A stretch of 64,000 bases of DNA from NCBI RefSeq assembly GCF_030656875.1, contig NZ_CP130943.1, forward strand, positions 4,154,001 through 4,218,000. Direction: 5' to 3'. This document shows, in pieces, positions 41,344 to 57,008 of the stretch. Origin of the DNA: Prescottella sp. R16. GTDB taxonomy: Bacteria; Actinomycetota; Actinomycetes; Mycobacteriales; Mycobacteriaceae. The notes beneath the pieces were generated by a model. That model saw only the letters and a list, made by a program, of their open reading frames with translations, was not told the DNA's origin and did not search any database. The stretch's first letter is position 1. Each line of letters begins with the position of its first letter. The position numbers were made by a program, and so were the translations under genes.

Positions 41344-41369
41344 TGGTGTGCCTCCTGTAGAAGTCTGTA

Positions 41370-41385
41370 ACAAACGATTGTTGCA
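41370..41385. promoter_or_regulatory. Regulon operator copy 1
   Basis: ACAAACGATTGTTGCA differs at two positions from the exact 16-mer found at 48282 and 52179. It lies 27 bases upstream of the amidohydrolase start, between that gene and the end of the SDR gene of the operon to the right. Confidence 0.7.
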
Positions 41386-41431
41386 AGAGAAGTGCGCCAT
41401 GTCCGCGGAACCGCGGACGGCGAGACCGAGG

Positions 41432-42325
41432 TCAGATGACGGCGGAGAGGTATCCTGGCCGGATCCGCGTCTTGTCGATGTCGTCGGGCTGCCAGCCCGG
41501 AACGAGCGCGGTGCCGTCCAGCGTGCGGACCGGGCGGTCGAGTTCGACGAGGATCCCCAGGTTTCGAGTGATCTTCCCCGTCAGCACCTTCGGGTCTCCG
41601 GTGCACAGGGCCAGTGCCGCCTCCGCGATGGTCTCCTCCGGTTCGGAGTTGCCGGTGGTGACACCGGGCACGGTGAGGGCGTTCTCGGTGGCGATCGAGT
41701 ATTCAGGCGCCAGCGTGTTGACCGCGATGTTGTCGTCGTACAGGTCCATCGCGGCGCCCGTGGTGATCCGGTCGATCATGGCCTTGGTGCCGCCGTACAG
41801 GCAGGCACCGAACGTCGAGTTCGGGGCGAACGGCGGGCCCTTGCGCGGCCCAGCCTGGGTCGAGGAGATGCTCAGGATCCACCCGGCCCCCCGCTTCCGC
41901 ATGCCGGGCACCGCCGCCGTCGCCAGATCCCATCCGGCCCAGACGTTCGTCTCCACCGAGTCGTAGAAGGACTCCCGGGTCATCTCGCCGTACAACTGGT
42001 CGAAGTGCCGAGTGGCTGCGGCGTTGTTGACGAGGATGTCGACCGGCGCACCGAGCACGGATTCGGCGTGGGCGATCACCGAGGCGCGGTCCGCGGTCGG
42101 GTCACCGAGGTCGAATACCAGGGCCTCGGCAGTGCCGCCGTCGGCTCGGATCTGCGCGACGGTCTCCTCGAGCGAGCCCTGCAGACGGCCGTCGCCGGCC
42201 CGCAACGATCGCGACACCGCGAGAACGTGGATGCCATCGGCGGCAAATCGTCGCGCGATGGCCCGGCCGATGCCACGGCTCGCGCCGGTGACGACGGCAA
42301 CGTGCGGAATATCGTTGTCGCTCAT
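41432..42325 (-). CDS. SDR-family oxidoreductase
   Basis: A 297-residue short-chain dehydrogenase: cofactor motif TGASRGIG at residues 13-20, the NNAAA variant of NNAG at 100-104, and Tyr177/Lys181 (YGGTK). The segment APNSTFGACLYGGTKAMIDR around the active site is shared with the SDR at 63,273, its closest relative in the window. Its ATG overlaps the DUF35 gene stop (ATGA), so it is the last gene of the six-gene operon from 48,185. It likely oxidises or reduces a hydroxy/keto intermediate, for example the aldolase product. Substrate unknown. Confidence 0.88.
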   Translation of the reverse strand: MSDNDIPHVAVVTGASRGIGRAIARRFAADGIHVLAVSRSLRAGDGRLQGSLEETVAQIRADGGTAEALVFDLGDPTADRASVIAHAESVLGAPVDILVNNAAATRHFDQLYGEMTRESFYDSVETNVWAGWDLATAAVPGMRKRGAGWILSISSTQAGPRKGPPFAPNSTFGACLYGGTKAMIDRITTGAAMDLYDDNIAVNTLAPEYSIATENALTVPGVTTGNSEPEETIAEAALALCTGDPKVLTGKITRNLGILVELDRPVRTLDGTALVPGWQPDDIDKTRIRPGYLSAVI

Positions 42326-42774
42326 CCGTTCACCCCCGAGTCTGCGGGCGCGAAGTACGGCAGTACGACGCCGTCTTCGATCTCGTGGAACTCCACCGCG
42401 ACAGGCATGTCGATCCGGACGTCGGCGGGCGCGCACCCGATGATGTTCGACACCATGTGGTAGCCCTCGTCGAGCTCGACGATGACCACCACGTAGGGGC
42501 TCGTGAAGGCCGGCGTCTGCGGCCTGGTCACCTCGGTGTAGCTGTAGACGGTGCCGCGACCGGAGCCGACCTGCCACTCGAGGCTGTCCGCCCCGCATCC
42601 GCGGCACAGCTTGTTCGGGTCGAACTCGGCGTGTCCACACGCCGAGCAGCGCTGGTACCGCAACTCTCCCGCGACGCATCCGTCCCAGAACGGCCTCGAC
42701 AGGACGGTGGGCTCGGGCAGCGGAATTCCCGCCCGCTGGGGCGCCAGTAAGGTCGTGATGATGTTCTCGCTCAT
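42322..42774 (-). CDS. DUF35/OB-fold acyl-CoA-associated zinc-ribbon protein
   Basis: A 150-residue protein with an N-terminal helix region, a rubredoxin-like zinc ribbon (Cys43, Cys46, Cys57, Cys60) and a C-terminal OB fold (TVYSYTEVTRP onward). DUF35 proteins partner thiolase-fold enzymes; in steroid side-chain breakdown the DUF35 part of ChsH2 binds Ltp2 to form an active retro-aldolase. Here the gene follows directly on a thiolase-fold gene with a 4-bp ATGA overlap, so the two products very likely form a complex. It could instead serve as a stabilising partner without a direct catalytic role. Confidence 0.88.
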   Translation of the reverse strand: MSENIITTLLAPQRAGIPLPEPTVLSRPFWDGCVAGELRYQRCSACGHAEFDPNKLCRGCGADSLEWQVGSGRGTVYSYTEVTRPQTPAFTSPYVVVIVELDEGYHMVSNIIGCAPADVRIDMPVAVEFHEIEDGVVLPYFAPADSGVNG

Positions 42775-43937
42775 GGTCGTTCACTTCCCAGTAGCAGGAC
42801 GTCGGTGAAGAAGGCCCCGGCGCCGCCGTTGCTGCACAGCACCACCTCGGGGTCGTCGACCTGGTTGGTCGCGCACACACCCTGGAGTTGGTGCACGGAC
42901 CGCGCGATGCGCTGGGTCAGCTGCACGATGCCGCCGCCGTGGCTGTACGACATCAGGCCGCCGTCGGTGGTCAACGGCAGCTTCGGGTCGTCACCGGTGA
43001 CGTTCTCGACGCACCACCGACCGCCCTCGCCCTCCTCGCAGAACTCGAATGCCTCGAACTGCCGGATGATCTCGAAGGAGAAGGGATCGTAGAGTTCGGC
43101 CACGTCGACATCGGCGGGCGTGAGCCCGGCCATCGCGAACGACTTACGGGCCGCACGGCGCCCGACGTATCCGTTGGGGATGTCGGAGGACCGGCTGCCG
43201 AGATCCCAACTGGGGGCGTGCTGGTAGGACGGGCCCATGTGGTCCAGTCCACCACCGAGGACGTAGACGGGCTTGCCGGGCAGGTCCTTCGCACGCTCGG
43301 CGGTGGTGACGATGAGCGCGCAGCCCCCCTCGGAGGTCATCGCGCAGTCGAGGAGGTGGAACGGGTCGGCGATCATGCGCGAGGCCAGGATGTCCTCGGC
43401 GGTGAACGGCCCACGGCCGTAGTAGATCGCGTCGGGGTTGATGTTGCCGTTGTTGCGGATAGTCGCCGCGATCTCAGCCATCTGCTCGGACGTCGTGCCG
43501 TGCTGGTGCATGTGCCGACGCGCGATCAGTGCGAACTCCGAGGCCGTGTAGAGGCCGAACGGGGCGACGAACTCGTTCGACGGGCGTGTCCACGGCGCGG
43601 TGGACTCGCGCTCGGTGTACCGGCCGGCCTCGCCGTCCGCGACCAGCACGGTCTCGCACAGTCCGGCGGCCACGACACTGGCGGCGTGTAGCACACCCGT
43701 GATGCCACCGGGGTTGTTCGCGTTCCACACCGGCCCCAGACCAAGCGAGTAGACGATCTGCGGCGCCGTCTTGCTGTACACGCCGTCGATCGTCGTCGGG
43801 TCGATACCGGACTCGGCGATGACGCCGCGCGCTGCCTCGAGACTGATGGTGAAGCTGTTGTGGCCCTCCAACACTCGCGCCTGCTCGGTGTTGTAGGCCG
43901 CGACGATCACGACGTCGCGGAAGGGATGTGCGGTCAC
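42771..43937 (-). CDS. Thiolase-fold protein lacking the catalytic Cys (Ltp2-like retro-aldolase candidate)
   Basis: A 388-residue thiolase-superfamily protein. Where true thiolases have NNNCSTG it reads NNPGGITG (about residues 74-81), so the nucleophilic Cys is gone. Instead Tyr283 (ELYDPFSFE) and Tyr331 (LMSYSHGGG) stand 48 residues apart, close to the two catalytic Tyr of Ltp2-type aldolases (50 apart). This predicts retro-aldol cleavage of a beta-hydroxyacyl-CoA rather than thiolysis. The GTG at 43937 is chosen from AGGAG 8 bases upstream. It overlaps the DUF35 gene that encodes the expected partner. Confidence 0.85.
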   Translation of the reverse strand: MTAHPFRDVVIVAAYNTEQARVLEGHNSFTISLEAARGVIAESGIDPTTIDGVYSKTAPQIVYSLGLGPVWNANNPGGITGVLHAASVVAAGLCETVLVADGEAGRYTERESTAPWTRPSNEFVAPFGLYTASEFALIARRHMHQHGTTSEQMAEIAATIRNNGNINPDAIYYGRGPFTAEDILASRMIADPFHLLDCAMTSEGGCALIVTTAERAKDLPGKPVYVLGGGLDHMGPSYQHAPSWDLGSRSSDIPNGYVGRRAARKSFAMAGLTPADVDVAELYDPFSFEIIRQFEAFEFCEEGEGGRWCVENVTGDDPKLPLTTDGGLMSYSHGGGIVQLTQRIARSVHQLQGVCATNQVDDPEVVLCSNGGAGAFFTDVLLLGSERP

Positions 43938-43957
43938 ATCGAGTACTCCTGTCTGGA

Positions 43958-46333
43958 TCAAAGATGAAGGGGGCGTTCGCCGATCACGTTGTCGACGGTC
44001 AACTGCGCCAGACGCTCCGGATCAACCCCGGCGAGGCGGGCCAGCACCTGGGCGTTGTGCTGGCCGAGAGTCGGCGCCGGTGTCGTGAACGCCGGCGCGG
44101 CGTTCGATGCGAACACCACGGGCAGACCCGGGATCTCGAACGCCCCGAGCACCGGATGGTCGAGTTTCTCGGCGAATCCGCGTGCCCGCACCTGCGGGTT
44201 GTCGAGGATCCGGCTCGGGTCCACGACGCGGGCGGCCGGAACTCCCTGTACGAGGAGAGCACGCTCGAGTTCGTCGACCTCGCGGACCGCACAGAACTCG
44301 GTGACCAGTTCGTCGAGCCGGTCGTGACAGTGGCGACGGCCGCTCGCCGTCGCGAAGGTTTCGTCGAGGACGACGTCCGGAAGTCCGAGGATCGCGGCGA
44401 GGGCGGTCCACTGGTCGTCGTCGGTGACGGCGATAGCCAGCCAGTCGTCGTCGCCCGCACAGCGGTAGACGCCCTGCGGAGCAGCGGCCGGACCGCGGTT
44501 GCCGTCCCGGGTCGGTGCGTTGCCGTAGGCGCTGTACTCGACGGCCATCTCGGCGGCGACGTTCAATGCGCTCTCGACCATCGGCACCTCGACGAAGCAG
44601 CCGCGTCCACGAGCTCGGGCGAACTCGAGCGCCGACAACGTCGCGACCACTGCATGCAGTCCGGCGACGGGATCGCACGGGCCCTTGAGCACCATCGGGC
44701 TGCCGTCGCGGTATCCCGTCGTCCACGACAGCCCCGTGGCCTGTTCCATCGTCTGTGCGAATCCGGTACGGTCCCGCCACGGACCGGATAGCCCGAACGC
44801 GGGCATCCGGACGAACACCGCCGCGGGGTTCACCTCGTGGATGCGTTCCCATGTGAGACCGAAGTTGTCGAGGACGCGGGGCGAGAAGTTCTCGATGACG
44901 ACGTCGGCGTGCCGGATCATCTCGAGCAGAACGTCGACCCCTTCGGGTCGGCTCAGGTCCAGGGTCACACCGAGTTTACCGGCGTTCGCGCCCTGGTAGA
45001 CGCCGCCGGCCTCCCACCAGGAGGGCTCCGCCGGGGTGCGGGTGGACGTGAAGCGCATCCCGTCCGGGCGCTGCACGGACTCGACCTTGATCACTTCGGC
45101 GCCGAGCCCGGCGAGCAGTTGTGTGGCCGCGGGTCCCGCCCAGAATGCGGTGAGATCGAGGACCCGCACACCGGCCAGCAGCGCGGCGTCCGTCTCGTCG
45201 AGCGGACGCGACGGCTGCACGCGGGGTTCCCACGGCCGGGCGTCGTCGTGCTCACCGAGCGTCGGGGCGGGGCGGACCGCATCGGGCGATACACCCTCGA
45301 CGAGGTACGGCCGTCGCGGCTGGACGAAGCCGGCCGGATTGTCGACGAACACGCCACGCTCCACGAAATGCGCGTTCTGCGTGACGGTCTCGGGTGTCCC
45401 GAGGGGCGACACCGGGATCCGCATGGCGCCGGCGATCTCGTCGATCGCCTCCACCGGCATCGTCATGGTCCACGACTCGATCATCGACTGGAACTCGGCG
45501 TAGCGTTCCTGGCGCCGACGCACGTCGACGATCGAATCGTCGGCCAGCAGTTCCGCCCGATCGATCATGATCAGGAAGTCCTGGAACATCTGCGCCGTGA
45601 TCGTGCAGAAGCCGACGTAGCCGTCGAGGCACCGCTCGACCGACGGGATCTCGACGGTGCGGGGCGTGCGGCGGCCCGGAGCGCCCGTCAGAACGGCAGA
45701 CACCGGGTGATAGAGAGCCATTGCGACGCCCATGGATTCGAGCATCGACAGGTCCGCCCACTCACCACCGCGGCCCCGACCGGCCGCACCGAGGCGCAGG
45801 CCCAGGGCGGTCGCGGCGGCAAAGGAGCCTGCGATCCACTCGCCGAGACGACCACCAGCCTGCAGTGGCTCGCGACCCTCGGGACCCCGGATCGCCAGCG
45901 AACCGGCGAGGGCCTGCAACGTGAACTCGGTGGCCGGCCGGTCGGCCCACGGACCACTCCGGCCGAACGGCGTGATCGACAGGATGTCGAGGCCGGGATA
46001 CTGCGACCGGATCGACTCGATCTGCGCGACCGACAGTTCCCCGGACTCGACCACCAGATCGGCGCCGGCCACGAAGTCGAGGACGTGCGAGTCGGCGGGC
46101 CCACCGCGGAGCGACCGCTTACCGGCCGCGAGGTACCGGAACAGCGCACCGTCGTCCGGACCGGCGTTCCCGTCGAGGCGCCACCGCCGCAGCGGATCCC
46201 CGTCCGGACCGGCCTCGACCTTGACGATGTCGGCGCCCGCGTCCACCAGCATCTTGGTGCAGTACCCGCCGGCGATCCCCGTGGAGAAGTCGACCACACG
46301 GAAGTCCTGAAGCAACGAATGCGACTGTTGCAC
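43958..46333 (-). CDS. Fused double family III CoA-transferase (CaiB/BaiF)
   Basis: A 791-residue protein with two CaiB/BaiF units in tandem. The first starts at LQDFRVVDFSTGIAGGYCTKMLVDAGADIVKVE, the second near residue 380 at GVRVLDLTAFWAGPAATQLLAGLGAEVIKVE; each has the conserved core and the second ends in the PTLGQHN block. Family III enzymes move CoA between carboxylic acids. GTG with AAGGA upstream. Such fusions may work as an intramolecular dimer, since the single-unit enzymes are interlocked dimers. It is the third gene of the operon from 48,185, so the substrate can be activated either by it or by the CoA ligase just before it. Confidence 0.9.
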   Translation of the reverse strand: MQQSHSLLQDFRVVDFSTGIAGGYCTKMLVDAGADIVKVEAGPDGDPLRRWRLDGNAGPDDGALFRYLAAGKRSLRGGPADSHVLDFVAGADLVVESGELSVAQIESIRSQYPGLDILSITPFGRSGPWADRPATEFTLQALAGSLAIRGPEGREPLQAGGRLGEWIAGSFAAATALGLRLGAAGRGRGGEWADLSMLESMGVAMALYHPVSAVLTGAPGRRTPRTVEIPSVERCLDGYVGFCTITAQMFQDFLIMIDRAELLADDSIVDVRRRQERYAEFQSMIESWTMTMPVEAIDEIAGAMRIPVSPLGTPETVTQNAHFVERGVFVDNPAGFVQPRRPYLVEGVSPDAVRPAPTLGEHDDARPWEPRVQPSRPLDETDAALLAGVRVLDLTAFWAGPAATQLLAGLGAEVIKVESVQRPDGMRFTSTRTPAEPSWWEAGGVYQGANAGKLGVTLDLSRPEGVDVLLEMIRHADVVIENFSPRVLDNFGLTWERIHEVNPAAVFVRMPAFGLSGPWRDRTGFAQTMEQATGLSWTTGYRDGSPMVLKGPCDPVAGLHAVVATLSALEFARARGRGCFVEVPMVESALNVAAEMAVEYSAYGNAPTRDGNRGPAAAPQGVYRCAGDDDWLAIAVTDDDQWTALAAILGLPDVVLDETFATASGRRHCHDRLDELVTEFCAVREVDELERALLVQGVPAARVVDPSRILDNPQVRARGFAEKLDHPVLGAFEIPGLPVVFASNAAPAFTTPAPTLGQHNAQVLARLAGVDPERLAQLTVDNVIGERPLHL

Positions 46334-46359
46334 AGTGTTTCCTTTCGCTCGTCGAACGG

Positions 46360-47880
46360 TCAGCCGGTGACTGCGGTGAACTGCTCGCGCAGCACGCGCC
46401 GCAGCACCTTGCCCATGTCGTTGCGGGGCAGGTCGGCACGGAACTCGACGAAAGCGGGTACCCGGGACGAACGCAGCCGGGCGCCGACCCACTCTCGGAT
46501 GACAGTGTCGGTGACCACACCGTCCGGGCTGTCCCCGCTCGGCACGATCGCCGCCACGACGACCTCGCCCCACCGGTCGTCGGGAACGCCGTAGACCACG
46601 ACGTCGTCGACGTGCGGATGTTCCCCGATGACGTCCTCGATCTCGCCTGGGGACAGGTTCTCCCCGCCGCGGACGATCACGTCGTCGAGGCGGCCTTCGA
46701 CGTAGACGTAGCCGCCATCGTCGATCCATCCTCCGTCCTTCGTGCGGAACCAGCCGTCGGCGTCGAGCAGCGAGGCGCCGGAGTACTCCCCCGAGACCTG
46801 GGCGCCGCGCACCCACAGTTCGCCGCGGGCGCCGGCCGGAACGGGGCGCCCGTCGTCGTCGCAGACCACGATCTCGACGTCAGGAACCGGTTGACCGACC
46901 GACCCTAGCCGGCGCTTGATCACGGGATCGGTCGACACCAGCGCCTCCCGATGATCCCGCGGCCCGAGAACTGCGATGGACGAGGAGGTTTCGGTGAGAC
47001 CGTAGCCGTTGACGAAGTCGACGCCGGGCAGCAGTTCGAGTGCCCGTTCGACGACGGGCAGCGGCATGCGGCCGCCACCGTAGGACAGGTGTCGCAGCGA
47101 GGGCAGGCCCTGCCCGTCCTCGGTGAGGACGTCGACGATGCGCGCGAGCATCGTCGGGACGACCATGGCGTGGGTGATGTCCTGCTCGCGCACGAGCCGG
47201 ACCCACTCGCGTTCGTCGAAGTTGGGCATCTGGACGATGCGGCGGCCGCTGTAGAGGCCGGTGAGCAGTCCCGCCACGCCCGCGATGTGGTAGGGCGGGA
47301 CACTCACCAGCGCGGCCTCGTCGGGGCCCGCACTGAACAGTTCGGTACCGCCCAGAACGTACGAGACGAGGTGTCGGTGCCGCAGGATCGCGACCTTCGG
47401 GGTGCCGGTCGTTCCGCTGGTGTGCAGTAGGACCGCGGGCGCCTCGGGGTCCTGTTCGGCCGGTGCGACGTCGACGGCCCCGCCGTGGTCACCGCCACCG
47501 AGACTCGCGATCAATGCGTCGGGGGCGACGATCGAGACACCCGCGACGTCCGCGCCGACCCGTGCAACGTTGCCGTCCGCGACGAGTATCGCCGGCGCAC
47601 GTCCTTCGATGAGGCGGCGCATCGGCTCGTCGGCCAAGCGGTAGCTGATCGGGGCGAACGGAATTCCGCTCCAGGCCGAGCCGAACAGCGCGATCGGGAA
47701 GGCGGCGGACGCCGTCGACCCGTAGAGCACGGCCTGTTCGGTGCTGTCGGCGCGATCGGCGGCGAACGCGCCGGCCAACTCGAGTAGTCGCGCGTAGCTG
47801 AGGCCGTCGCGCTTGTCGCCGACGGCGATACGATCGCCGTCCGCGCCCGCGGCGATCTCGAGAAGCGTGAGGATGTTCAT
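46360..47880 (-). CDS. Acyl-CoA synthetase (AMP-forming)
   Basis: A 506-residue AMP-forming ligase. The P-loop-like motif LLHTSGTTGTPK is at residues 151-162, NGYGLTETSS marks the adenine pocket, the hinge region is GRLDDVIVRGGENLSPGEIE, and Lys491 (NDMGK) is the catalytic lysine. It would convert a carboxylic acid to its CoA ester. Second gene of the operon led by the regulon operator at 48,282, followed by the double CoA-transferase. The usual PTGK of fatty-acid ligases reads NDMGK here, which fits a non-standard acid. Confidence 0.9.
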   Translation of the reverse strand: MNILTLLEIAAGADGDRIAVGDKRDGLSYARLLELAGAFAADRADSTEQAVLYGSTASAAFPIALFGSAWSGIPFAPISYRLADEPMRRLIEGRAPAILVADGNVARVGADVAGVSIVAPDALIASLGGGDHGGAVDVAPAEQDPEAPAVLLHTSGTTGTPKVAILRHRHLVSYVLGGTELFSAGPDEAALVSVPPYHIAGVAGLLTGLYSGRRIVQMPNFDEREWVRLVREQDITHAMVVPTMLARIVDVLTEDGQGLPSLRHLSYGGGRMPLPVVERALELLPGVDFVNGYGLTETSSSIAVLGPRDHREALVSTDPVIKRRLGSVGQPVPDVEIVVCDDDGRPVPAGARGELWVRGAQVSGEYSGASLLDADGWFRTKDGGWIDDGGYVYVEGRLDDVIVRGGENLSPGEIEDVIGEHPHVDDVVVYGVPDDRWGEVVVAAIVPSGDSPDGVVTDTVIREWVGARLRSSRVPAFVEFRADLPRNDMGKVLRRVLREQFTAVTG

Positions 47881-47888
47881 CGGGTGCC

Positions 47889-48185
47889 TCAGTCCGATGC
47901 GGGCATCGCCTTGGGCGCCTTGACGCCCAGCGGCTCGTCCCCGACGGTGAGGGTGCCCGATCCCGGCTTGGTGCAGAGCAACTCGACGGAGCCGTCCGTG
48001 TTGCAGTAACGCTTGCCGAGCTGAATCTCACCACTCGTGGCCCCCTCGGGGGTGCCCGCCGACTCCGGCGTGACCATGGCGACGCCGTCGCAGCGGATGT
48101 CGACGTCCTGCGCCGGGATCCGGATGACGATCAGTTCGGCCGCGGAAGTTGCACTCCGCAATCTGGCTCCTACACGCAACTGCAT
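47889..48185 (-). CDS. 98-residue protein of unknown function heading the catabolic operon
   Basis: A small protein starting MQLRVGARLRSATSAAELIVIRIP, with GAGGAG 9 bases before the ATG. The middle (QDVDIRCDGVAMVTP) and a second Cys pair region (KRYCNTDGSVELLCTKPG) look like a small beta-rich domain with four Cys that might bind metal. It ends 8 bases before the CoA ligase gene. No family is named here with confidence. As the first gene behind the operator it is expressed with the whole pathway and may be a binding or scaffold protein. Confidence 0.75.
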   Translation of the reverse strand: MQLRVGARLRSATSAAELIVIRIPAQDVDIRCDGVAMVTPESAGTPEGATSGEIQLGKRYCNTDGSVELLCTKPGSGTLTVGDEPLGVKAPKAMPASD

Positions 48186-48281
48186 GGGAAAACTCCTCGA
48201 GATCTTTCGCGGCTCGTAGCCGCGGGCACGTGGGAACGACGTCGGCGCCGGGACACTACCCATCCGGCGTCGGACATCCGA

Positions 48282-48297
48282 GCAAACGCTTGTTGCA
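48282..48297. promoter_or_regulatory. Regulon operator copy 2
   Basis: GCAAACGCTTGTTGCA, identical to the site at 52179, lies 97 bases upstream of the 98-residue protein gene that heads the leftward six-gene operon. A TAGTGT box on the minus strand (48253-48258) is a possible -10 element downstream of it. Confidence 0.75.
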
Positions 48298-48362
48298 AAC
48301 AACTATTACAGCCGTGTGTGATCCACGTCAAACCTCGATACCGGCGGTGTCGGCATAGCCCC

Positions 48363-49775
48363 TCACGACAGGTCGAGAACCCGACCGCCCACGAGAACCG
48401 TTCCCACAGCGGAAGAATCAGGTGAACTCAGCATCTCCCGCAGGGCCACGTCGAGAACGACGAGGTCTGCCGGCGCCCCGGGACGTACGCGACGGGACGG
48501 TCCGCCCGGGCTGTCCGCAGACGCCAGATATCCCCGGAGCGCCCGGGAGGCGTCGAGCCGCTCGGCCGCTCCGAACACGACCCCGGATTCGGTCCGGCGC
48601 CGGGCCGCGGCCGCGATCACCGCCCATGGATCGAGCGGCCCGTAGGGGGCATCGCTCGACAGTGCGACGGGCACGCCCGCGTCGAGCAGGGTCCGGCACC
48701 GGTACAGGTCGCCGTGGTCGCGTTCGTCGACCCGGGCCCGGTAGTCGTCCCCGCGATCGGCGACGAACCCCGGTTGGGTGACGACGATCAGCCCGTGCCG
48801 GCGCAGCGCGTCGACCGCCTCGACCGGCACGATCGACGCGTGCTCTATGCGATCACCCGGCAGGCAGCCGACCTGGTCGAGGACGGCGAGCAGGACCAGC
48901 AGCGACTCGCGCGTGACACTGTGCACCGCGACGGCGCGCCCGTCCGCCCGCGCCCGGAGGACGGTATCGGCCAGACGATCGAGGTCGGGCGGGTCGGAGT
49001 CTGCGAGCACGATCTTGTACGGCCCCACCGTCACCCGGCCGTCGCACGCCGGCAGGCGCGCCGATCCGGGGGCGATACCCAGCAAGTGCAGACGTTGCGG
49101 AAGGTCACCGCACCGGACGGCGTCGACCAGCGCCGCGCAGGACCCGGTGGTCAGGTCGGGCGTGGCGTCGGTGACCGCCGTGATGCCCAGCCGCGCGAGG
49201 TCACGGCCGATGCCTGCCAGTGCGGGTGGCCGTCCGGTCGGCAGCCGGTCGCGGAGGACGTCGTCGGCACGCCATACCCGGCCGGTGGGGCGATCCGACG
49301 AGTCCCGTTCGATGCCGGGATGTCGGACGGCGGCCAGGCCGGCAGCCTCGACCGCGGCCGTGTTGAGCATCCACAGCGCGCCGCTGCGGTGCTGGACGCG
49401 GACCGGGCGCGGCGTGTGCAGCGCATCCAGTGCCGACGCGTCGAGTAGGCCCGCAACCGTTTCGACGTAGCCGACGCCCCGCACCCATCCCCCGGCGCCC
49501 GCGTCGGCGCCGGCCAGCGCGCGGGCCAACTCCGCGGGGTCGCGCACCGCGGGCGGACCACACCGGACCGAAGCGCGCGCCGCCGCCATCGCGTGCAGGT
49601 GCAGGTGGTGATCGACCAGTCCGGGCAGCACCGCGCCGCCGCGCGCGTCGAGCAGCTCGCCCCGGTCCGCGGCCAGCCCCGGCCCAACCTCGACGATCCG
49701 GCCCGCGACGACTCGCACGTCCAGGCCCGGCCGCCCCTCCACCTCTGCGTTGCGGACGACGAGTTCGGTTCTCAC
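48363..49775 (-). CDS. Amidohydrolase family 3 (YtcJ-like) protein
   Basis: A 470-residue amidohydrolase. The metal motif DHHLHLHAM (near residues 55-63) has the family-3 HLH pattern; HSVTRESL, RIEHASIV and SSDAPYGPLDPW give the further His and Asp ligands; the C-terminus has GAPADLVVLD. It is shorter than the 563-residue relative at 29,375. Its GTG overlaps the end of the CoA-transferase gene, so the two are coupled. It probably hydrolyses a C-N or C-O bond of an intermediate; substrate unknown. Confidence 0.86.
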   Translation of the reverse strand: MRTELVVRNAEVEGRPGLDVRVVAGRIVEVGPGLAADRGELLDARGGAVLPGLVDHHLHLHAMAAARASVRCGPPAVRDPAELARALAGADAGAGGWVRGVGYVETVAGLLDASALDALHTPRPVRVQHRSGALWMLNTAAVEAAGLAAVRHPGIERDSSDRPTGRVWRADDVLRDRLPTGRPPALAGIGRDLARLGITAVTDATPDLTTGSCAALVDAVRCGDLPQRLHLLGIAPGSARLPACDGRVTVGPYKIVLADSDPPDLDRLADTVLRARADGRAVAVHSVTRESLLVLLAVLDQVGCLPGDRIEHASIVPVEAVDALRRHGLIVVTQPGFVADRGDDYRARVDERDHGDLYRCRTLLDAGVPVALSSDAPYGPLDPWAVIAAAARRRTESGVVFGAAERLDASRALRGYLASADSPGGPSRRVRPGAPADLVVLDVALREMLSSPDSSAVGTVLVGGRVLDLS

Positions 49776-51046
49776 ACCGACAGTCCCAGCTCGCGTAGTA
49801 CCCGGGCGGTGTCGTGTCCGGGTGCCGGCGCGCGCACCGGGGCCCCGGGACGCCGCCCCGGCCGGGCGATCTCGATCTCGCCGTCATCGGTGGCGACCAG
49901 CCAGCGGTCGCCGCGCCAGTGGACCCGCGGCGGGTCCGCATCGACCCCGTCCAGCGTCGCGGCGACGACGTCGGCCATCGAGACCTCCCAGAGGTGTCCG
50001 GCGCTCCCGTCCGGGGGCACACTCATGGCCCGCACGGCCGCGGTGAGACCGGTGAGCGGGTCGGCGACGGCGTCGCCGACGAACATCGGCAGCCCGGCCT
50101 CGTCGAGGGCGACGAGACCGCTCGACGCGGCGACGTCGTCCCCGAAGCCGACCACCGCACAGTCACGTCCGCGAGCGGTGATCGAGATCCACGTGGTTCC
50201 CTCGGCGCATGCGGCGGCCGCGTCGAGCCCGAACCGTTCGAGTGCTCGCGGACGCGACGCCTCGACGACCACGTCCGCGGCGGCGACGAGCCGCGCCATC
50301 GCGGTGCGCCCCGCCCGGGTGTCCGGGTCGAGTACCACCGACTCGTGGCCCGCATGGAGCATGCTGTAGAAGCCCCGGTCCCCGAACCTGGCCCCGTCCA
50401 GGCGATTCGGTGTCTCGACCTTGATCACCCGCGCGCCCGCCGCCCCGAGCAGCTGCGCGCACAACGGGCCCGCCCACAACGCACTGAAGTCGACGACCAG
50501 CAGACCCTGTACGTTCCGCGGCCGGCCGGTGGTCGGGTCCGCGCCCTCGCTCACGGCCCGACGGATCGGGGCGGCCGCGATCCCCAACAGCTCCGCACGC
50601 TCCCCCAGGTCCGCCCCGGAGTGCTCCCGCAACCACGCCGCCACCGGGGGCCACGGATCGTCGCCGACGTCGCGGCCGATCATCGCCCCGAGCAGGGCGG
50701 GATCGTCCGGGCGGGCGCACGAGACCGCCGCCCAGCCGTCGGCGGTCGGCAGCAGTCGGCAGTGTCGCCCGACCGACAGGCTCCCGCCCCGGACACCTCC
50801 CGTGTAGGCGGCGCGTTCGGCGAGCACCCGGGCGCCGTCCACCCGGACGGGGTGAGCGGTGCCCGCGGTCGCCGCGGCGATCCAGTCGGACAGCTCCCGC
50901 GCACAGGACGCGGCCCGGCCCGGCGGGACGACCGGCGGCCCGTCGGGCCGACCCGTCAACATCACCACTCCGCTCTCCGCCCAGTCCCGAATGCGTTCCC
51001 GCACAGTACCGGGCGGATAGTTCGAGAACCGTGTTCTACACTCCAC
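49772..51046 (-). CDS. Family III CoA-transferase (CaiB/BaiF)
   Basis: A protein of up to 424 residues of the CaiB/BaiF type. RDWAESGVVMLTGRPDGPP near the N-terminus and GLLVVDFSALWAGPLCAQLLGAAGARVIKVETPNR in the middle are conserved blocks; the core domain begins only around residue 180, so it resembles the second half of a double transferase with a shortened first half. The start is uncertain: GTGs at 51046 and 51004 are possible, and an ATG at 50962 has the best ribosome site but would cut the conserved block. It is coupled to an amidohydrolase gene and divergent from a crotonase gene. Confidence 0.85.
   Translation of the reverse strand: MECRTRFSNYPPGTVRERIRDWAESGVVMLTGRPDGPPVVPPGRAASCARELSDWIAAATAGTAHPVRVDGARVLAERAAYTGGVRGGSLSVGRHCRLLPTADGWAAVSCARPDDPALLGAMIGRDVGDDPWPPVAAWLREHSGADLGERAELLGIAAAPIRRAVSEGADPTTGRPRNVQGLLVVDFSALWAGPLCAQLLGAAGARVIKVETPNRLDGARFGDRGFYSMLHAGHESVVLDPDTRAGRTAMARLVAAADVVVEASRPRALERFGLDAAAACAEGTTWISITARGRDCAVVGFGDDVAASSGLVALDEAGLPMFVGDAVADPLTGLTAAVRAMSVPPDGSAGHLWEVSMADVVAATLDGVDADPPRVHWRGDRWLVATDDGEIEIARPGRRPGAPVRAPAPGHDTARVLRELGLSV
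51025..51042 (+). promoter_or_regulatory. Inverted repeat and -10 box upstream of the crotonase gene
   Basis: AGAAC-CGT-GTTCT (51025-51037) is an inverted repeat overlapping TACACT (51037-51042), a likely -10 box for the rightward crotonase gene. It also lies at the start of the leftward CoA-transferase gene, so one bound protein could affect both. Confidence 0.4.
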
Positions 51047-51087
51047 GCGCTCACACTTGCACAGTCATCTCGACCGACGAGGACCGG

Positions 51088-52155
51088 ATGGATTTCCACA
51101 CACCACACATCTCGGCCCGCCATCTCGCCGACGGCTTCGCCGACCGGCCCTTGCTCGACGACGACGCCGCGATCGACACGCCGGTCGTCGTCGTCGACCT
51201 CGACCTCGACGGGCACGACGATCCGGGGGTGCTCGCGGCCGCGGCCGAGCGGGCCCGTGCCGCAGACCGCTACCTAGTCGGTCTCCGCCGTGGCCCGATC
51301 CCCGCGACGGCCCCGCAGCTCCCCCTGATCCGGGCACTGGACGCCACCTACACCGACGCCCCCGACACCCCCGAGCGGGCCGTCGTCCCGGTTTCCGGCG
51401 CCGAGCACGCGGTGCGGGACTTCGCGGCCCGGGTCGCCGCGAACCCGCAGGCCTCGACGGTGCTGCGGCAGGTCCTGCGCGCCGGACTCGACCTCGACGT
51501 TCCGGCCGCGGTCGATGTGGAGTCGCTCGCCTATTCGACGCTGCTGGGCGGCCCCGAGTTCGCCCGGTGGCTCGGCCGGCGTGGCGCTCGCCCGTTGCCG
51601 CCGCCACCGGCCACCGATCCGGTCCTGGTGTCACGCGCCGGCACCGAACTCCATGTGACACTGAACCGGCCCGAGCGCCGCAACGCGTACGGTACCCGGC
51701 TACGCGACGCCCTCACGGCGGCCTTGAGCATCGCGGTCACCGACGCGTCGGTGATGCGGGTCGTGCTCGACGGTGCGGGCCCGGCCTTCTGCGCCGGCGG
51801 CGATCTCGACGAGTTCGGGACCACCCCCGACATCGCCCTCGCGCACCTGGTCCGCACCCGCGGCGGGGCCGGACTGCTGGTCCACGAGTTGGCCGATCGC
51901 ATCGAGGCCCGAGTTCACGGAGCCTGTGTCGGTGGCGGTATCGAGATCCCAGCCTTCGCAGGTCGGGTCCTCGCGGCCGAAGACGCATGGTTCCGGCTGC
52001 CGGAGGTCGAGATGGGCCTGATCCCGGGAGCGGGCGGCACCGCGAGCGTTCCTCGGCGGATCGGACGCTGGCGCGCGATGCACCTGTTCGTCACCGGAAC
52101 GCGCATCGACGCGCGGACCGCGCTGGATTGGGGGCTGGTGGACGCTCTCTGTTGA
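51088..52155 (+). CDS. Enoyl-CoA hydratase/isomerase family protein with N-terminal extension
   Basis: A 355-residue protein whose last 170 residues are a crotonase core: the oxyanion loops are FCAGGDLDEF and GACVGGGIEI, and the acidic residue in LPEVEMGLIPGAGGT is the likely catalytic base. The first 185 residues look like a decayed second crotonase unit (PVVVVDLDLDG at the start, then ESLAYSTLLGGPEFARWL), ending in a Pro-rich linker (ARPLPPPPATDP). The ATG at 51088 has GAGGA upstream. It would hydrate or isomerise an enoyl-CoA. It lies next to a regulon-type operator and the TetR gene. Confidence 0.85.
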   Translation: MDFHTPHISARHLADGFADRPLLDDDAAIDTPVVVVDLDLDGHDDPGVLAAAAERARAADRYLVGLRRGPIPATAPQLPLIRALDATYTDAPDTPERAVVPVSGAEHAVRDFAARVAANPQASTVLRQVLRAGLDLDVPAAVDVESLAYSTLLGGPEFARWLGRRGARPLPPPPATDPVLVSRAGTELHVTLNRPERRNAYGTRLRDALTAALSIAVTDASVMRVVLDGAGPAFCAGGDLDEFGTTPDIALAHLVRTRGGAGLLVHELADRIEARVHGACVGGGIEIPAFAGRVLAAEDAWFRLPEVEMGLIPGAGGTASVPRRIGRWRAMHLFVTGTRIDARTALDWGLVDALC

Positions 52156-52178
52156 TCCCGGAACGCCCGACTCCGCCA

Positions 52179-52194
52179 GCAAACGCTTGTTGCA
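52179..52194. promoter_or_regulatory. Regulon operator copy 3, upstream of the TetR gene
   Basis: GCAAACGCTTGTTGCA, identical to the site at 48282 (17 identical bases when the preceding A is counted), lies 86 bases upstream of the TetR start. This position fits autoregulation by the product of that gene. Confidence 0.75.
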
Positions 52195-52279
52195 GAGCCC
52201 GCATTCTCCTGCCATGATGAACCGAGCTTTGGAACCAGCGGGCGCTGCCACGCTCGCGCGCCGCGGAAGGGCCGAACGC

Positions 52280-52909
52280 ATGCCGTCGAAAATCGAACGG
52301 ACGTCACCGAGCGAACGCCCCGTCGGCGACGCCAAGGCGGCCTTCCTGACGAAGATTCGCAAGGCCGCACTACGTCAATTCGCCGACAGCGGCTACAACG
52401 GCACCTCGATGCGCGACATCGGCTCGCTCGTCGGTGTGCACGCCGGCAGCCTGTACGTCCACATCAAGAGCAAGGAAGACCTGCTCTACCAGATCGTGGG
52501 CGAAATCGTCGAGAACGGCGAGGCGGCACTGTCGAAGGTCGAGGCCTCCGACGTCGGCGCCATCGACAAGCTCCGCATGCTGGCCCGCATCCATCTGCGC
52601 TGGGCCATGGCGAACCCGGACGCCGCGAAGGTGTTCGAGCGGGAATGGATGCGGCTCAACGGCGCCCAGCTCGACGAGGTCCGCCACAAGCGGCAGCAGT
52701 GGGCCGAGGCGGTGGAGCGGATCATCCAGGCCGGCGTCGACGCGGGCACGTTCCGGAAGATGGACGTGGCACTCGCCGCGGTCGCGTTCCGGTCGGTCCT
52801 CAACGCCAACTACACGTGCGAGGGCGATCCCGACGTCGACGGTATCAAGCTGGCCGACGAGTTCGTCGATTTCCTCTTCAACGGCTGGGTCGTCGTCGAC
52901 AACCGCTGA
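52280..52909 (+). CDS. TetR-family regulator, proposed regulator of the catabolic regulon
   Basis: A 209-residue TetR protein with HTH segments GTSMRDIGSLVGVHAGSLYVHIKSKEDLLYQIV (about residues 43-75) and a helical C-terminal domain of the kind that binds CoA thioesters in catabolic regulators. The ATG at 52280 has GGAAGGG upstream; an ATG at 52214 would add 22 low-complexity residues. The operator that also occurs at 41370, 48282 and 56523 lies directly upstream, so this is the best candidate for its binding protein. That link is inference. Confidence 0.88.
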   Translation: MPSKIERTSPSERPVGDAKAAFLTKIRKAALRQFADSGYNGTSMRDIGSLVGVHAGSLYVHIKSKEDLLYQIVGEIVENGEAALSKVEASDVGAIDKLRMLARIHLRWAMANPDAAKVFEREWMRLNGAQLDEVRHKRQQWAEAVERIIQAGVDAGTFRKMDVALAAVAFRSVLNANYTCEGDPDVDGIKLADEFVDFLFNGWVVVDNR

Positions 52910-52996
52910 CCCCGCCGGGTAACAGGCAACCGCCCGCTGCCCTCCTTCCCGCGTATCGGGGCCGGCCCCGACGCCTCGAATCCGTAAGGGGCTTCC

Positions 52997-53686
52997 ATGT
53001 TGACTGGAACCGCATTCGTCACCGGCGGCACAGGCGCACTCGGTGTCGCCGTCACCGAACATCTGCTGTCGATCGGCTGGCGCGTCGTCGTACCGTTCAT
53101 CGTGCCGGAGGAGGCCGCGCGCCTCTCCGACCACGATCGGCTCGAGAAGATCCGCTGCAACGTCGCCGAACCCACCGAACTGGACGAGGCCGTGACCGTC
53201 GCCGCGAACGACGCGGGCGCTCCACTGACCGCACTGGTCAACCTCGTCGGCGGTTTCGAGTCGGGTCCGCGCACACACGAGGCCGACGCCGCGGCCATCG
53301 ACCGCCAACTGGATCTCAACGTGCGCACCACGTATGCGGTGCTGCGCGCGGGGCTGCCGCACCTGATCGCGAACGGTGGCGGGTCGGTGGTGGCCATGTC
53401 GTCCGGCGCGGCTCTCAAGCCATTCCCCGGCGGTACCGCCTACAGCACCTCCAAGGCCGCGGTGCTTGCGCTGGCCGAGTCGATCGCCGTCGAGTACAAA
53501 GCGGACGGAATCCGGTCGAATGCGTTGCTGCCCGGGGTGATCGATACCCCCGCGAACCGCACGGCGATGCCGAACTCCGATCGCGCCAACTGGGTCGCCC
53601 CCGCCGCGATCGCGAAGGTGATCGAGTTCCTGCTCTCGGAGGACTCGGCACCCATCTCGGGTGCCGCGATTCCACTGGGACTCTGA
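52997..53686 (+). CDS. SDR-family oxidoreductase
   Basis: A 229-residue short-chain dehydrogenase with cofactor motif TGGTGALG (9-16), the NLVGG segment in place of NNAG, Ser135/136 and Tyr149/Lys153 (YSTSK). The replacement of NNAG is unusual but known in divergent SDRs. AAGGGG precedes the ATG. It follows the TetR gene by 87 bases on the same strand and could be co-transcribed with it, hence under the same operator. Substrate unknown. Confidence 0.86.
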   Translation: MLTGTAFVTGGTGALGVAVTEHLLSIGWRVVVPFIVPEEAARLSDHDRLEKIRCNVAEPTELDEAVTVAANDAGAPLTALVNLVGGFESGPRTHEADAAAIDRQLDLNVRTTYAVLRAGLPHLIANGGGSVVAMSSGAALKPFPGGTAYSTSKAAVLALAESIAVEYKADGIRSNALLPGVIDTPANRTAMPNSDRANWVAPAAIAKVIEFLLSEDSAPISGAAIPLGL

Positions 53687-53961
53687 CGACCCGGATCCCT
53701 GCAGATTCTCGACATGTTCGTTGCAGTCCGCGGTCCGATCGGCGGGTCGCGGATCGCTACGAATCAGTGCCGTACGTACCTTGCGACGCAGAGTCCGTCG
53801 CTCTCGAAGGCGTAACACACCAGAGGTCGTAGATCGCAGCCGGCTCGGTAGACGCGCGTCCTACCGACACCGATGCGACGATATTGCGGGTTCCATGCGA
53901 GCGGATGTCCACGCCGTGGCCCGGCGTGGCGGCAGCCGTTCCGCAGTCGATGCCTCGAAGT
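53687..53961. other. Intergenic region between convergent SDR and CoA ligase genes
   Basis: These 275 bases carry no convincing gene, perfect long hairpin or operator. Base composition is less skewed than in the genes. It may be decayed coding sequence. Confidence 0.3.
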
Positions 53962-55632
53962 TCAGTGGATCGAGCCCGCACGCCCCGGTGTCAGCGACGT
54001 CAACACATCCACTCGCTTGACCTTGCCGGTTGCGTTCCGGGGCAATTCTTCTGTCTGGACGACCCACCGGGTCGGCACCTTGTATCGCGCGATCCGTTCG
54101 GTCATGTAGTCGGTCAGTTCCGACTGGGTCACCGAGGCGCCTGCAGCCACCACGACCACGGCACAGACTTCCTCACCGTAGTCGTGATGGTCGACCCCGA
54201 CGACGATGCACTCACGCACCGACGGATGCTCGCCGAGTGCGTCCTCGACCTCCGCCGGGTACACGTTCTCTCCGCCACGGAGAATGAGATCGGACCGCCG
54301 GCTGCTGATCCGGAGGTATCCGTCCTCCATCGTGCCCAGATCGCCGGTACGCATCCACCCCGAGTCGTCAGTGATCGATGCGGTGGCCTCCGGGTTGTTC
54401 CAGTAGCCGAGCATCACCAGCGGGCCACGCACACAGATCTCGCCCTCGACACCCTCCGGGACCGGATTCCCCGCATCGTCCCGGACCTCGACCTGCATGG
54501 TGAGGACCGGGCGGCCCACCGTGTCGGGCCGCTCGGCCAGGTCGGCTGCGGCGGCAACCGTTGCAGCAGAGGAGGACTCGGTCAGACCGTAACTGGTTCC
54601 GAGTGTACGTTCTGCGGCCGGCAGGATCTCCCGCAATCTCTCCTTCAATTTCGAAGAAGACGGGGCGGAACTTATCGAGATGGTCTGCAGGGACGACAGA
54701 TCGTAGCGGGAGAGATCGCCGTGCTCGACCAGTCGGGTCATCATCGTCGGAACCGCACCCCAGTTCGTGAGGCCTTCCCGCTCGATCAGTGCCAGCACCC
54801 GATCGATGTCGAATCGGCCGGTGCTGATCACGGCGGTGTCACCGAACGCCAGCCGCGGAACAGCGAGGTTGTGAAGTGCCGCGATGTGGAAGAGCGGTGT
54901 CGCCAGCAGGAACCGCCGCCGACTCGGTGCGCGGACCAACTCCGCTGCGAGTGCATCGTTGAACCTGTGAAAGTCCACCGCCGCCACCATGTTCCGGTGC
55001 GAATGTGTCGCCCCTTTGGGGCGGCCGGTGGTACCGCTGGTGAACAGAATGACCGCCGGATCGTCTTCGTTCACGCTGCTGTGCGGCAGTTCGATGCCCG
55101 GATGCGCGGATGCCCGAGCAGGCACGTCCTCCTCCGTGGACAGCACCGGTACCGCCACGGGTCCGAGGAGGTTCCGACGAGGCGCGTCCGCGACGATCAC
55201 CTTCGGCTCGGACAACTCCACCCCGTAAGCGACTTCACGAGCGGACCACAGCGAGTTCATCCCCACGGTGATTGCGCCGAGCGCGGTCGTGGCCCAGAAG
55301 GTCATGATCCATTCCGCGTTGTTCGCCGACAGGATCGCGACCCGGTCTCCCGGACCGACGCCATGCTCGGAACGCAACGAGTGAGCGAGTGACGCAACCC
55401 GTGCCAGATGCTCGGTGAAGGTCAGGCGGAGGTCGTCGCACACCAGGTACTCGGCGTCACCGTAGCGTGCGGACTCGGCGAGTATCTCGTTCAGCGAGCG
55501 GTATCTGTTGCGGAACACCGGCATCGGGTATCCACGTACCTGCTCCTCAACGATCTCGAAGGGCGCCCCCGCCGCCGTGAGCCGGGCAACTGCTTCCGTG
55601 CGCGCGTCGAGCACACGACGAAGGTCGGACAT
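53962..55632 (-). CDS. Acyl-CoA synthetase (AMP-forming)
   Basis: A 556-residue AMP-forming ligase with FTSGTTGRPKGA (near residue 210), the adenine-pocket segment SYGLTESSSA, the hinge block SRRSDLILRGGENVYPAEVEDALG and the C-terminal Lys in NATGK. The 40-residue N-terminal stretch before the core (YPMPVFRNRYRSLNEIL) is typical of cyclohexanecarboxylate- or aryl-acid-type ligases more than of fatty-acid ligases, a weak hint of substrate. GAAAGG supports the ATG. The gene directly downstream of its start region is a thiolase/SDR remnant, so it probably once belonged to a larger operon. Confidence 0.9.
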   Translation of the reverse strand: MSDLRRVLDARTEAVARLTAAGAPFEIVEEQVRGYPMPVFRNRYRSLNEILAESARYGDAEYLVCDDLRLTFTEHLARVASLAHSLRSEHGVGPGDRVAILSANNAEWIMTFWATTALGAITVGMNSLWSAREVAYGVELSEPKVIVADAPRRNLLGPVAVPVLSTEEDVPARASAHPGIELPHSSVNEDDPAVILFTSGTTGRPKGATHSHRNMVAAVDFHRFNDALAAELVRAPSRRRFLLATPLFHIAALHNLAVPRLAFGDTAVISTGRFDIDRVLALIEREGLTNWGAVPTMMTRLVEHGDLSRYDLSSLQTISISSAPSSSKLKERLREILPAAERTLGTSYGLTESSSAATVAAAADLAERPDTVGRPVLTMQVEVRDDAGNPVPEGVEGEICVRGPLVMLGYWNNPEATASITDDSGWMRTGDLGTMEDGYLRISSRRSDLILRGGENVYPAEVEDALGEHPSVRECIVVGVDHHDYGEEVCAVVVVAAGASVTQSELTDYMTERIARYKVPTRWVVQTEELPRNATGKVKRVDVLTSLTPGRAGSIH

Positions 55633-55684
55633 CTCTATACCTTTCCGAAAAAGGAATCGATCGCGGTCGGACCGTCGACTGTGA

Positions 55685-56153
55685 TCATCGGATGGTCGAC
55701 TGGCCGCCGTCGACGTTCCACGACTGGCCACTGACCCACGCAGTCTGGCTGCTGGCGAGGAATACTGCTGCTCAAGCGATCCCGGCGGGATCACCGGCAC
55801 GGCGCAGAGGAATGTTCGCTTCCGCGTACTGCTTCCACACAACCGCCGACCCGGATCCCGGACGGCCCGAGCTCCTTGGCCATCGACGACGTCAGCGACT
55901 GGATCGCGGCCTTCGACGCCGAGTATGCCGACGAGTTCGCGCCGCTCGGCTTGCCGTCGACCGACGAGATGTTGACGATGCACCCACCCGCACCGCGCTC
56001 AACCATCGAGCGCGCACAGGCCCGGCTCATCAGGAACGTTCCTCGCAGATCGACTCGGCGCACCCGGTCCCAGACGTCGACGTCCGCGACCAGGGCGACG
56101 GCCCTGCGACCGATCGGAGACCTCGCCACGTCCACGATCACCGGGTTACCCAT
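55685..56153 (-). pseudogene. Chimeric remnant: thiolase start joined to SDR middle and C-terminus
   Basis: The ATG at 56153 has a good GAGGG site and begins MGNPVIVDVARSPIGRR, the standard N-terminus of an acetyl-CoA acetyltransferase. After about 17 residues the frame continues as the middle of a short-chain dehydrogenase (VDLRGTFLMSRACARSM, NISSVDGKPSG, YSASKAA), then breaks near 55800. The SDR C-terminus (WVSGQSWNVDGGQSTIR and a stop at 55685-55687) resumes in another frame. Both the thiolase rest and the SDR nucleotide-binding N-terminus are missing, so this is a product of deletion that fused two adjacent genes, followed by frameshift decay. It is unlikely to encode an active enzyme. 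Confidence 0.8.
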
Positions 56154-56223
56154 AGCAGCCCTCCTCGAACAGCGCATACGAGTACCGTCGAGACACGGCC
56201 AACTACGCATTCTGTGGCAGATT

Positions 56224-56250
56224 TGAGAATACAATTCTCATGACATGAGA
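56224..56250. promoter_or_regulatory. Nested palindromes upstream of the thiolase/SDR remnant
   Basis: TGAGAATACAATTCTCA (56224-56240, 7-bp arms) overlaps TCTCATGACATGAGA (56236-56250, a perfect palindrome around A). Together they give three copies of TGAGA in alternating orientation, about 70 bases upstream of the remnant start. This looks like the operator of the lost thiolase operon. Confidence 0.55.
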
Positions 56251-56276
56251 CACCATAGTGCTTCGATACACAAGCC

Positions 56277-56465
56277 TTACTGTCGAGTAGCCAGACCATC
56301 CATCACTAAATAGAATGATGTTCTAAAAATAACCTCGATCCGGATCCGCTCGCCCAGACGCCCCATCCGCTCGCGGAGCGCAGGGGCGATCACCTCGACG
56401 ATCTCACCGGAATCGCCTTCGCCCCAACCTCTGTCGACGAACAACCGACAGTCGAAGCAGGCCAC
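56277..56465 (-). pseudogene. Possible gene fragment, unidentified
   Basis: A 62-codon leftward frame has gene-like codon use for its first 44 codons (ACFDCRLFVDRGWGEGD and on to GRLGERIRIE) and then runs into AT-rich, promoter-like sequence. The two early Cys (CFDC) are notable. The abrupt loss of composition suggests a gene piece cut at a rearrangement point. No family is recognised. Confidence 0.35.
56311..56325. promoter_or_regulatory. TAGAA-N5-TTCTA palindrome in an AT-rich stretch
   Basis: TAGAATGATGTTCTA has perfect 5-bp arms in the most AT-rich 100 bases of the window. It resembles TetR-type operators, but the spacing differs from a KstR box. The gene it served may be lost. Confidence 0.35.
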
Positions 56466-56522
56466 AAGTCCTCCTCACCCGAGGAGTAGCCGGGCAGGCC
56501 CGGATGTGATGTAGCTTTCTAA

Positions 56523-56538
56523 ACGAACAAGCGTTTGC
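56523..56538. promoter_or_regulatory. Regulon operator copy 4 (reverse orientation)
   Basis: On the minus strand GCAAACGCTTGTTCGT matches the first 13 bases of the consensus 16-mer exactly. It lies 15 bases upstream of the gutted SDR gene and the binding-protein gene that follows, so the binding protein at 57,009 may now be driven by this operator-promoter. Confidence 0.65.
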
Positions 56539-56553
56539 TCCAATGGGGAGAAC

Positions 56554-56965
56554 ATGAGACTCCAAGAAAAATCTGTGCTCGTCACCGGCGTCGGCCCAGG
56601 ACTGGGACGTGAGAGCGCGCTGTTGTTCGGCGAGAACGGTGCACAGGTCGCGGTCACCGACATCGCCGACGCGGACGACGACGATCAAGCTGTGGCCGGA
56701 TACCGTCGTGACAGCTTCGTCCGCCCGTTGCACGGCATGCCACCTACCTTCTTCGGTTCCACGGCCGATAGAGTGACGGACCGATCGAGTGAAGAAACAC
56801 GGGAGGGGACCCCGATTCGACGGGGATGCCGCTCGAGTTGAATCGCCCACCGCGACTGCGCGACAACACGAACGCTGCCCTGTTCTTCGCATCGGACGAG
56901 TCCGAATACATCAGCGGAGTCTGCCTGCCGACCGCCGACGGCGGAATCCTCACAGACTTCCATCT
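56554..56965 (+). pseudogene. SDR gene with internal deletion
   Basis: GGGGAG precedes an ATG that opens MRLQEKSVLVTGVGPGLGRE, a normal SDR nucleotide-binding start (TGVGPGLG), lost after about 37 residues at QVAVTDI. Out-of-frame sequence follows, and near 56870 in a different frame comes the SDR C-terminal block NAALFFASDESEYISGVCLPTADGGIL. The middle, with the catalytic Ser-Tyr-Lys, is gone. It keeps its ribosome site and an upstream regulon operator. The truncated gene precedes an intact binding-protein gene on the same strand. Confidence 0.75.
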
Positions 56966-57008
56966 CGATCGCGGACCGGTCCGACTCTCACCAAACAAGG
57001 AGAATCCG

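Follow-up and report, generated by a model that had tools for sequence, protein, structure and literature searches.

A rare palindromic operator and its probable TetR-type repressor in a catabolic island of Prescottella sp. R16

Do four near-identical short repeats spread over one catabolic island mark a common regulon, and if so, which protein reads them? The repeats lie in a 64,000-nucleotide stretch (here, the window) of Prescottella sp. R16 (positions 4,154,001 to 4,218,000 of the 4,531,251-base contig NZ_CP130943.1), a deep-sea sediment isolate (PMC10972888). An initial annotation, made from the letters of the stretch, had reported a 16-mer upstream of several catabolic genes and had named a TetR-family gene at 52,280, which we call TetR1, as the likely regulator. 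We conclude that the island very likely holds a local, autoregulated TetR regulon in which TetR1 would be the repressor at four promoters.

A mismatch scan of the window recovered the reported copies of the 16-mer, i.e., exact matches at 48282 and 52179, a match with two changes at 41370, and a reverse copy at 56523 on the minus strand with three mismatches. These four matches (at most three mismatches) compare with 0.18 expected, and four were reached in none of 100 shuffles. A genome-wide scan, which had been proposed as a check, gave a divided result for the 16-mer: at up to three mismatches it was nonspecific (19 matches versus 35 in a reversed-pattern control), but all three matches with at most two mismatches were inside the island. 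Given that the 16-mer at three mismatches did not rise above its control, we recast the unit as a near-palindrome of 14 bp, AnCAARCGHTTGTT, that begins one base before the 16-mer; the repeat itself was real, but the palindrome is the better reading of it. The 14-bp pattern (ANCAARCGHTTGTT) had four matches genome-wide, all in the island, and its reversed control had none. A looser pattern (AACAANCGNTTGNT) occurred exactly at five places in the genome, four of them in the island. Because the 14-bp pattern was drawn up post hoc, with the sites already known, independent tests carry the weight. We built a symmetric matrix on 15 sites taken from the islands of five relatives and on none from the window; its four highest scores in the window were the four operators (32.5, 25.1, 24.9, and 22.7 bits; next, 9.9 bits). 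The best scores in 60 Markov-simulated windows had a median of 10.8 bits and a maximum of 17.1 bits.

We then considered conservation. A search of 301 genomes from the family (cutoff, E 1e-25; at most 10 first-look candidates scored per genome) detected TetR1 in six, all belonging to the genus of the window. The full protein was present in the records P. defluvii Ca11, P. equi DSM 20307, R. hoagii AcN21-7, and Rhodococcus sp. OK519. In all five relatives with the island, a site stood upstream of the gene for a DitZ-like protein, of a 98-amino-acid (aa) gene that opens a six-gene acyl-coenzyme A (acyl-CoA) operon, and of TetR1, so that with the window included these three promoters carried the site in six of six genomes. 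In alignments of the six genomes, the columns of operator 1 were invariant in 14 of 14 cases (15 of 76 for the other columns) and those of operator 2 in 13 of 14 (67 of 176). For operator 3, aligned over seven rows including a second TetR1 copy, the values were 11 of 14 and 26 of 116. Since the genomes have a common ancestry, the evidence lies in the contrast with the flanks and not in invariance alone. Across 14 genus genomes, the pattern had 23 matches, 22 in the six genomes with TetR1 and one in the other eight (reversed-pattern control, three in total), and the DitZ-like gene was detected in the same six. The lack of TetR1 in those eight genomes is weak evidence, with at most 10 candidates per genome scored. 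One further P. defluvii record, SampleD3_15 (L067), had a C-terminal TetR1 stub beside the neighboring short-chain dehydrogenase/reductase (SDR) gene and lacked a site in the 20 kb retrieved. Sites at three promoters shared by all six genomes, preferential retention of the palindrome, and the lack of any other match in the genome strongly support a local regulon, as had been proposed.

The placement of the sites is informative about the kind of control. All four operators are intergenic; their distances to the following start codons (as called here) are approximately 25, 95, 88, and 14 bp. Operator 2 starts 8 bp downstream of the TAATAG hexamer of a putative six-gene operon promoter, approximately at the transcription start point, and a bound repressor would thus cover that point; TTGACG and ATAG of this promoter were invariant across the six-genome alignment. 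Operator 3 overlaps the -35 element of the putative TetR1 promoter and is located downstream of an enoyl-CoA hydratase-like (ECH) gene, ahead of TetR1 only. This layout would fit repression by occlusion plus autoregulation. In two relatives (G009 and G142), the ECH gene and the six-gene operon share a divergent promoter that contains the second site. In the window, genes for Amidohydro_3 (48363-49775) and CaiB (49772-51046) proteins separate operator 2 from the ECH gene, which therefore has no adjacent site here. Overall, a site in the repressor gene's own promoter and at adjacent operons, rare elsewhere and kept in relatives, is the arrangement of a local autoregulated TetR regulon.

TetR1 belongs to the TetR family (PF00440, 47.3 bits against a cutoff of 24; PF17932, 60.7 bits against 26.4). 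A site was present in its own promoter in six of six genomes, and in G142 a second TetR1 copy (G142:C1:754139-754868; L048, L059), which adjoins a cluster around another TetR gene, TetR2, approximately 70 kb from the DitZ-like island, has its own operator. These two observations are the best argument for pairing TetR1 with the operator, and on this sequence evidence TetR1 is the best regulator candidate, in agreement with the initial annotation. Its recognition-helix stretch, HAGSLYVHI, was identical in 40 of 40 aligned homologs (36 to 93% identity to TetR1) and differed in five other TetR_C_24 proteins of the same genome (motif scan of 11 further loci). The closest solved folds to its AlphaFold model (mean predicted local distance difference test score, 87.2) were 3him, AibR with isovaleryl-CoA, 6azh, KstR2, PfmR, and FadR with stearoyl-CoA. 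Nearness to TetR structures that hold acyl-CoAs suggests that the ligand of TetR1 is probably an acyl-CoA as well.

Several observations weigh against this assignment. The island, TetR1, and the sites are present or absent together, and co-occurrence alone therefore cannot name the regulator. No clear promoter was seen in the sequence around operator 1, ahead of the DitZ-like operon. Two of the 23 genus matches (G058:C9 and G163:C1) are unexplained: the G163 match, in a genome in which TetR1 was not found, reaches 19.3 bits, more than the best score of any of the 60 simulated windows, and the G058 match scores 16.8 bits and is near another KstR2-like TetR gene. There was also no usable locus of a distant homolog; the one further protein that an order search with the alignment brought up (G676) has a different recognition helix, and its 3.6-kb locus contains no palindrome of this kind. 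As for their surroundings, the G163 match (AGCAAACGATTGTT; L071:1501) is upstream of a nonribosomal peptide synthetase-like frame and the G058 match (AACAATCGCTTGGT; L070:1501) is between two SnoaL-like frames, both as judged by eye; AACAATCGCTTGGT is perhaps a third dialect of the operator. Distant homologs with the same recognition helix include those of Amycolatopsis and Thermocatellispora, upstream of which the pairing would predict the pattern AnCAAnCGnTTGnT. A class search (with TetR1), an order search (with a distant homolog), and a plasmid search yielded no further TetR1 homologs among at most 7, 8, or 10 first-look candidates per genome, and with so few candidates scored this absence is weak evidence.

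Could the repeats instead be fortuitous, or a repeat without regulatory function? The motif is short, and part of its conservation is inherited because the six genomes are related. The genome nevertheless holds no further match, the core is invariant amid divergent flanks, and the four sites have the four best matrix scores; the kept positions and the matrix test already contradict this explanation, and we regard its probability as negligible. A different regulator nearby is somewhat easier to conceive, although still very improbable. The candidates are the KstR-like TetR2 (58696-59313), which is kept in the genus, and a third TetR gene approximately 3 kb past the window, both of them close by. 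Relatives of TetR2 (88 to 91% identity) occur in G075, G153, and G183 (in G183, over residues 49 to 203 only), three genomes in which neither TetR1 nor a match to the pattern was found, and for this we did not favor TetR2. These three genomes also lack the island, and the argument is not decisive. As for the third gene, no island-type site occurred in the 20 kb that begins 1 kb before the window end and includes it. Apart from the question of the regulator, 8 of the other 13 genomes of the genus had TetR2 relatives (86 to 93% identity), and TetR2 perhaps serves the neighboring SDR and 733-aa acyl-CoA-dehydrogenase-like frames (59330-62406, by eye). The third TetR gene (L104:4142-4732) has the KstR2-like helix GALYHYF.

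The remaining candidate, which we also consider unlikely but less so than the others, is the genome's own KstR2 (at approximately 732.9 kb) or a KstR2-like paralog, acting within a steroid regulon of which TetR1 would be a target or partner. The published KstR2 operator is AnCAAGnnCTTGnT (PMC3068626), and the island operators have the same architecture. Moreover, two of the three sites at the genome's own KstR2 locus contain a CAATCG/CGATTG core half, and the site-like match in G058 is beside a KstR2-like TetR gene. On the other hand, AnCAAGnnCTTGnT fits none of the four island sites and occurs at two places in the genome, none in the window. The KstR2-like gene (named from sequence, neighbors, and motif by eye) is located elsewhere, at 730 to 743 kb, together with sites of its own (AGCAAGTGCTTGGT, AGCAATCGCTTGGT, and ACCAAGCGATTGCT). 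The two best sites of that locus score 13.9 and 10.5 bits, compared with 22.7 to 32.5 bits for the island sites; the third listed site is not among the three best matrix scores of the locus. The recognition helix of TetR1 also differs from that of the KstR2-locus protein. On the basis of the operator mismatch, the low scores, and the different helix, we did not favor KstR2. At L103:4886 and L103:14878, within the KstR2 locus, the half-site is CAAT where the published one is CAAG.

We thus retain TetR1 as the probable repressor and turn to the fourth operator, which the initial annotation had placed upstream of an SDR/binding-protein unit. The SDR gene is a remnant split over two frames, with the solute-binding gene (57009-58628) behind it, and of the four sites said to stand upstream of island genes, this one is flanked by decayed genes. 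Its counterpart (AACAAACGATTGTT; L106:9402), on another contig of G058, is between an intact aldehyde dehydrogenase (ALDH) frame and an SDR gene. In that stretch, the SDR gene is broken (frames as read), and past a segment with a transposase-like frame there is a shortened solute-binding gene (by eye). Among the 14 genus genomes, only G058 had an ALDH within E 1e-150 of its own. Given the position of operator 4 between remnants and that of its counterpart beside an intact ALDH gene, the unit looks like an old divergent ALDH/SDR pair that once belonged to the regulon and has decayed in this genome. The region 55791-56234 contains further debris, an SDR fragment in a frame that opens with an apparent thiolase N terminus (by eye), and together with the ALDH and SDR remnants it forms a small gene graveyard around operator 4.

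Table 1. Coordinates in the window of the operators, putative promoters, and genes of the island
Feature	Position	Strand	Remarks
Operator 1	41369..41382	+	AACAAACGATTGTT; upstream of DitZ-like gene/small protein/alcohol dehydrogenase operon (minus strand)
Operator 2	48281..48294	+	AGCAAACGCTTGTT; upstream of six-gene acyl-CoA operon (minus strand)
Operator 3	52178..52191	+	AGCAAACGCTTGTT; within TetR1 gene promoter
Operator 4	56526..56539	-	AGCAAACGCTTGTT, read on minus strand; flanked by ALDH and SDR remnants
Putative six-gene operon promoter	48303..48331	-	TTGACG - 17 bp - TAATAG, sigma-70 type, read from sequence
Putative TetR1 promoter	52190..52218	+	TTGCAG - 17 bp - CATGAT; read from sequence and alignment
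TetR1, likely cognate repressor	52280..52909	+	TetR_N + TetR_C_24
DitZ-like protein, PF04909, putative amidohydrolase-related oxygenase	40180..41343	-	Closest solved structures, DitZ and PtmU3
Conserved 81-aa protein, no family found	39920..40165	-	
Zinc-binding alcohol dehydrogenase	38787..39917	-	
Conserved 98-aa protein, first gene of six-gene operon, no family found	47889..48185	-	
Acyl-CoA synthetase	46360..47880	-	
Double-domain type III CoA-transferase	43958..46378	-	
Thiolase/lipid-transfer-like protein, putative aldolase subunit	42771..43961	-	
ChsH2-type zinc-ribbon/OB partner	42322..42774	-	
SDR, last gene of six-gene operon	41432..42331	-	
ECH	51088..52155	+	In G009 and G142, but not here, a site in its divergent promoter
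ALDH N-terminal remnant	56349..56456	-	44% over 36 aa, E 6e-6 (3.7-kb search)
SDR remnant	56554..56977	+	N- and C-terminal pieces in different frames
Family-5 extracellular solute-binding protein, ABC transporter	57009..58628	+	Beyond SDR remnant

What the regulon serves can be read in part from its genes. DitZ and PtmU3 are proteins of diterpenoid pathways. The first gene behind operator 1, initially annotated as an amidohydrolase, indeed matches PF04909 (105.9 bits), but its closest relatives among solved structures are DitZ (E 4e-77) and PtmU3 (E 5e-34), and it may be an oxygenase. PtmU3 is described as an amidohydrolase-related dinuclear oxygenase (ARO) (PMC10811679), and the gene product combines the PF04909 fold with this close relative among the oxygenases, as an ARO would. 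A dinuclear metal site with three His and three carboxylates is an ARO feature, and several His/Asp/Glu positions of the DitZ-like protein line up with DitZ (by sequence alignment). A nearby Rieske ferredoxin gene served as a search criterion in PMC10811679; scans of 18 stretches of the window, one of them out of frame, gave no PF00355 match. Outside the six-gene operon, a synthetase at 53962-55641 without an operator matched the NCBIfam model for CasG, a steroid-24-oyl-CoA synthetase (854.5 against a cutoff of 750). The DitZ/PtmU3 likeness, the CoA and aldolase genes, and this neighbor lead us to guess, with low confidence, that the substrate would be a polycyclic terpenoid or steroid acid. 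A frame with an N terminus similar to that of the CasG-type synthetase (by eye) is located approximately 24 kb from it, outside the window (L104:16628-18328). The two small proteins (39920-40165 and 47889-48185) had no Pfam or NCBIfam match and were kept in five of five relatives (75 to 91%). No publication on the island was found in the open literature, as judged from titles and the beginnings of abstracts.

Taken together, these data suggest a simple scheme. A TetR1 homodimer would bind AnCAARCGHTTGTT at the four promoters and repress them: at its own promoter from an operator over the -35 element, at the six-gene acyl-CoA operon from an operator at the transcription start, and likewise at the DitZ-like/alcohol dehydrogenase operon. 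The divergent ALDH/SDR unit would formerly have been under the same control. The ligand that releases TetR1 from its operators is probably an acyl-CoA formed within the pathway.

This type of control is well known, and the regulon is a new example of it. The AibR, FadR, and other acyl-CoA-responsive TetR repressors resemble TetR1 in fold, and perhaps in ligand class, although they are only approximately 21 to 23% identical to it; their operators and targets are other than those of the island. The KstR2 regulon of mycobacteria and rhodococci (PMC3068626) likewise combines a TetR repressor, a 14-bp A-n-CAA-nnnn-TTG-n-T palindrome at a few promoters near the repressor gene, autoregulation, and catabolic genes. 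In contrast to KstR2, TetR1 (18 to 19% identical in the fold alignment) has a different recognition helix and other target genes, and the island operator does not fit CAAG-nn-CTTG. By sequence, the two operators appear to be dialects of one architecture, and cross-binding between them may occur. The KstR3-atf1-chsH4-chsE6 operon of Mycolicibacterium neoaurum also joins a repressor gene to an aldolase/DUF35 pair for side-chain cleavage, but there the regulator sits inside a single operon (PMC10398937). A more tentative idea, which we hold to be possible though rather less than even in likelihood, is that TetR1 would be the founder of a separate KstR2-like branch, with the near-invariant HAGSLYVHI helix and an operator dialect close enough to that of KstR2 for cross-talk in one cell. 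TetR1 would then control an undescribed pathway of CoA-ester activation of a polycyclic terpenoid or steroid acid, DitZ/PtmU3-like hydroxylation, and ChsH2/Ltp-type aldolase cleavage.

For a previously uncharacterized catabolic island of Prescottella, these findings define a regulon, put forward a candidate for its repressor, and specify the operator exactly. With the latter two in hand, the inducer, and hence the substrate, would be findable by a binding-release screen. The pathway, with its DitZ/PtmU3-like putative oxygenase, is of more interest than the type of control. TetR1 and KstR2, related repressors with near-synonymous operators in one genome, would lend themselves to the study of how TetR specificity diverges, and operator 4 appears to be a case of an operator that has outlived the genes formerly under its control.

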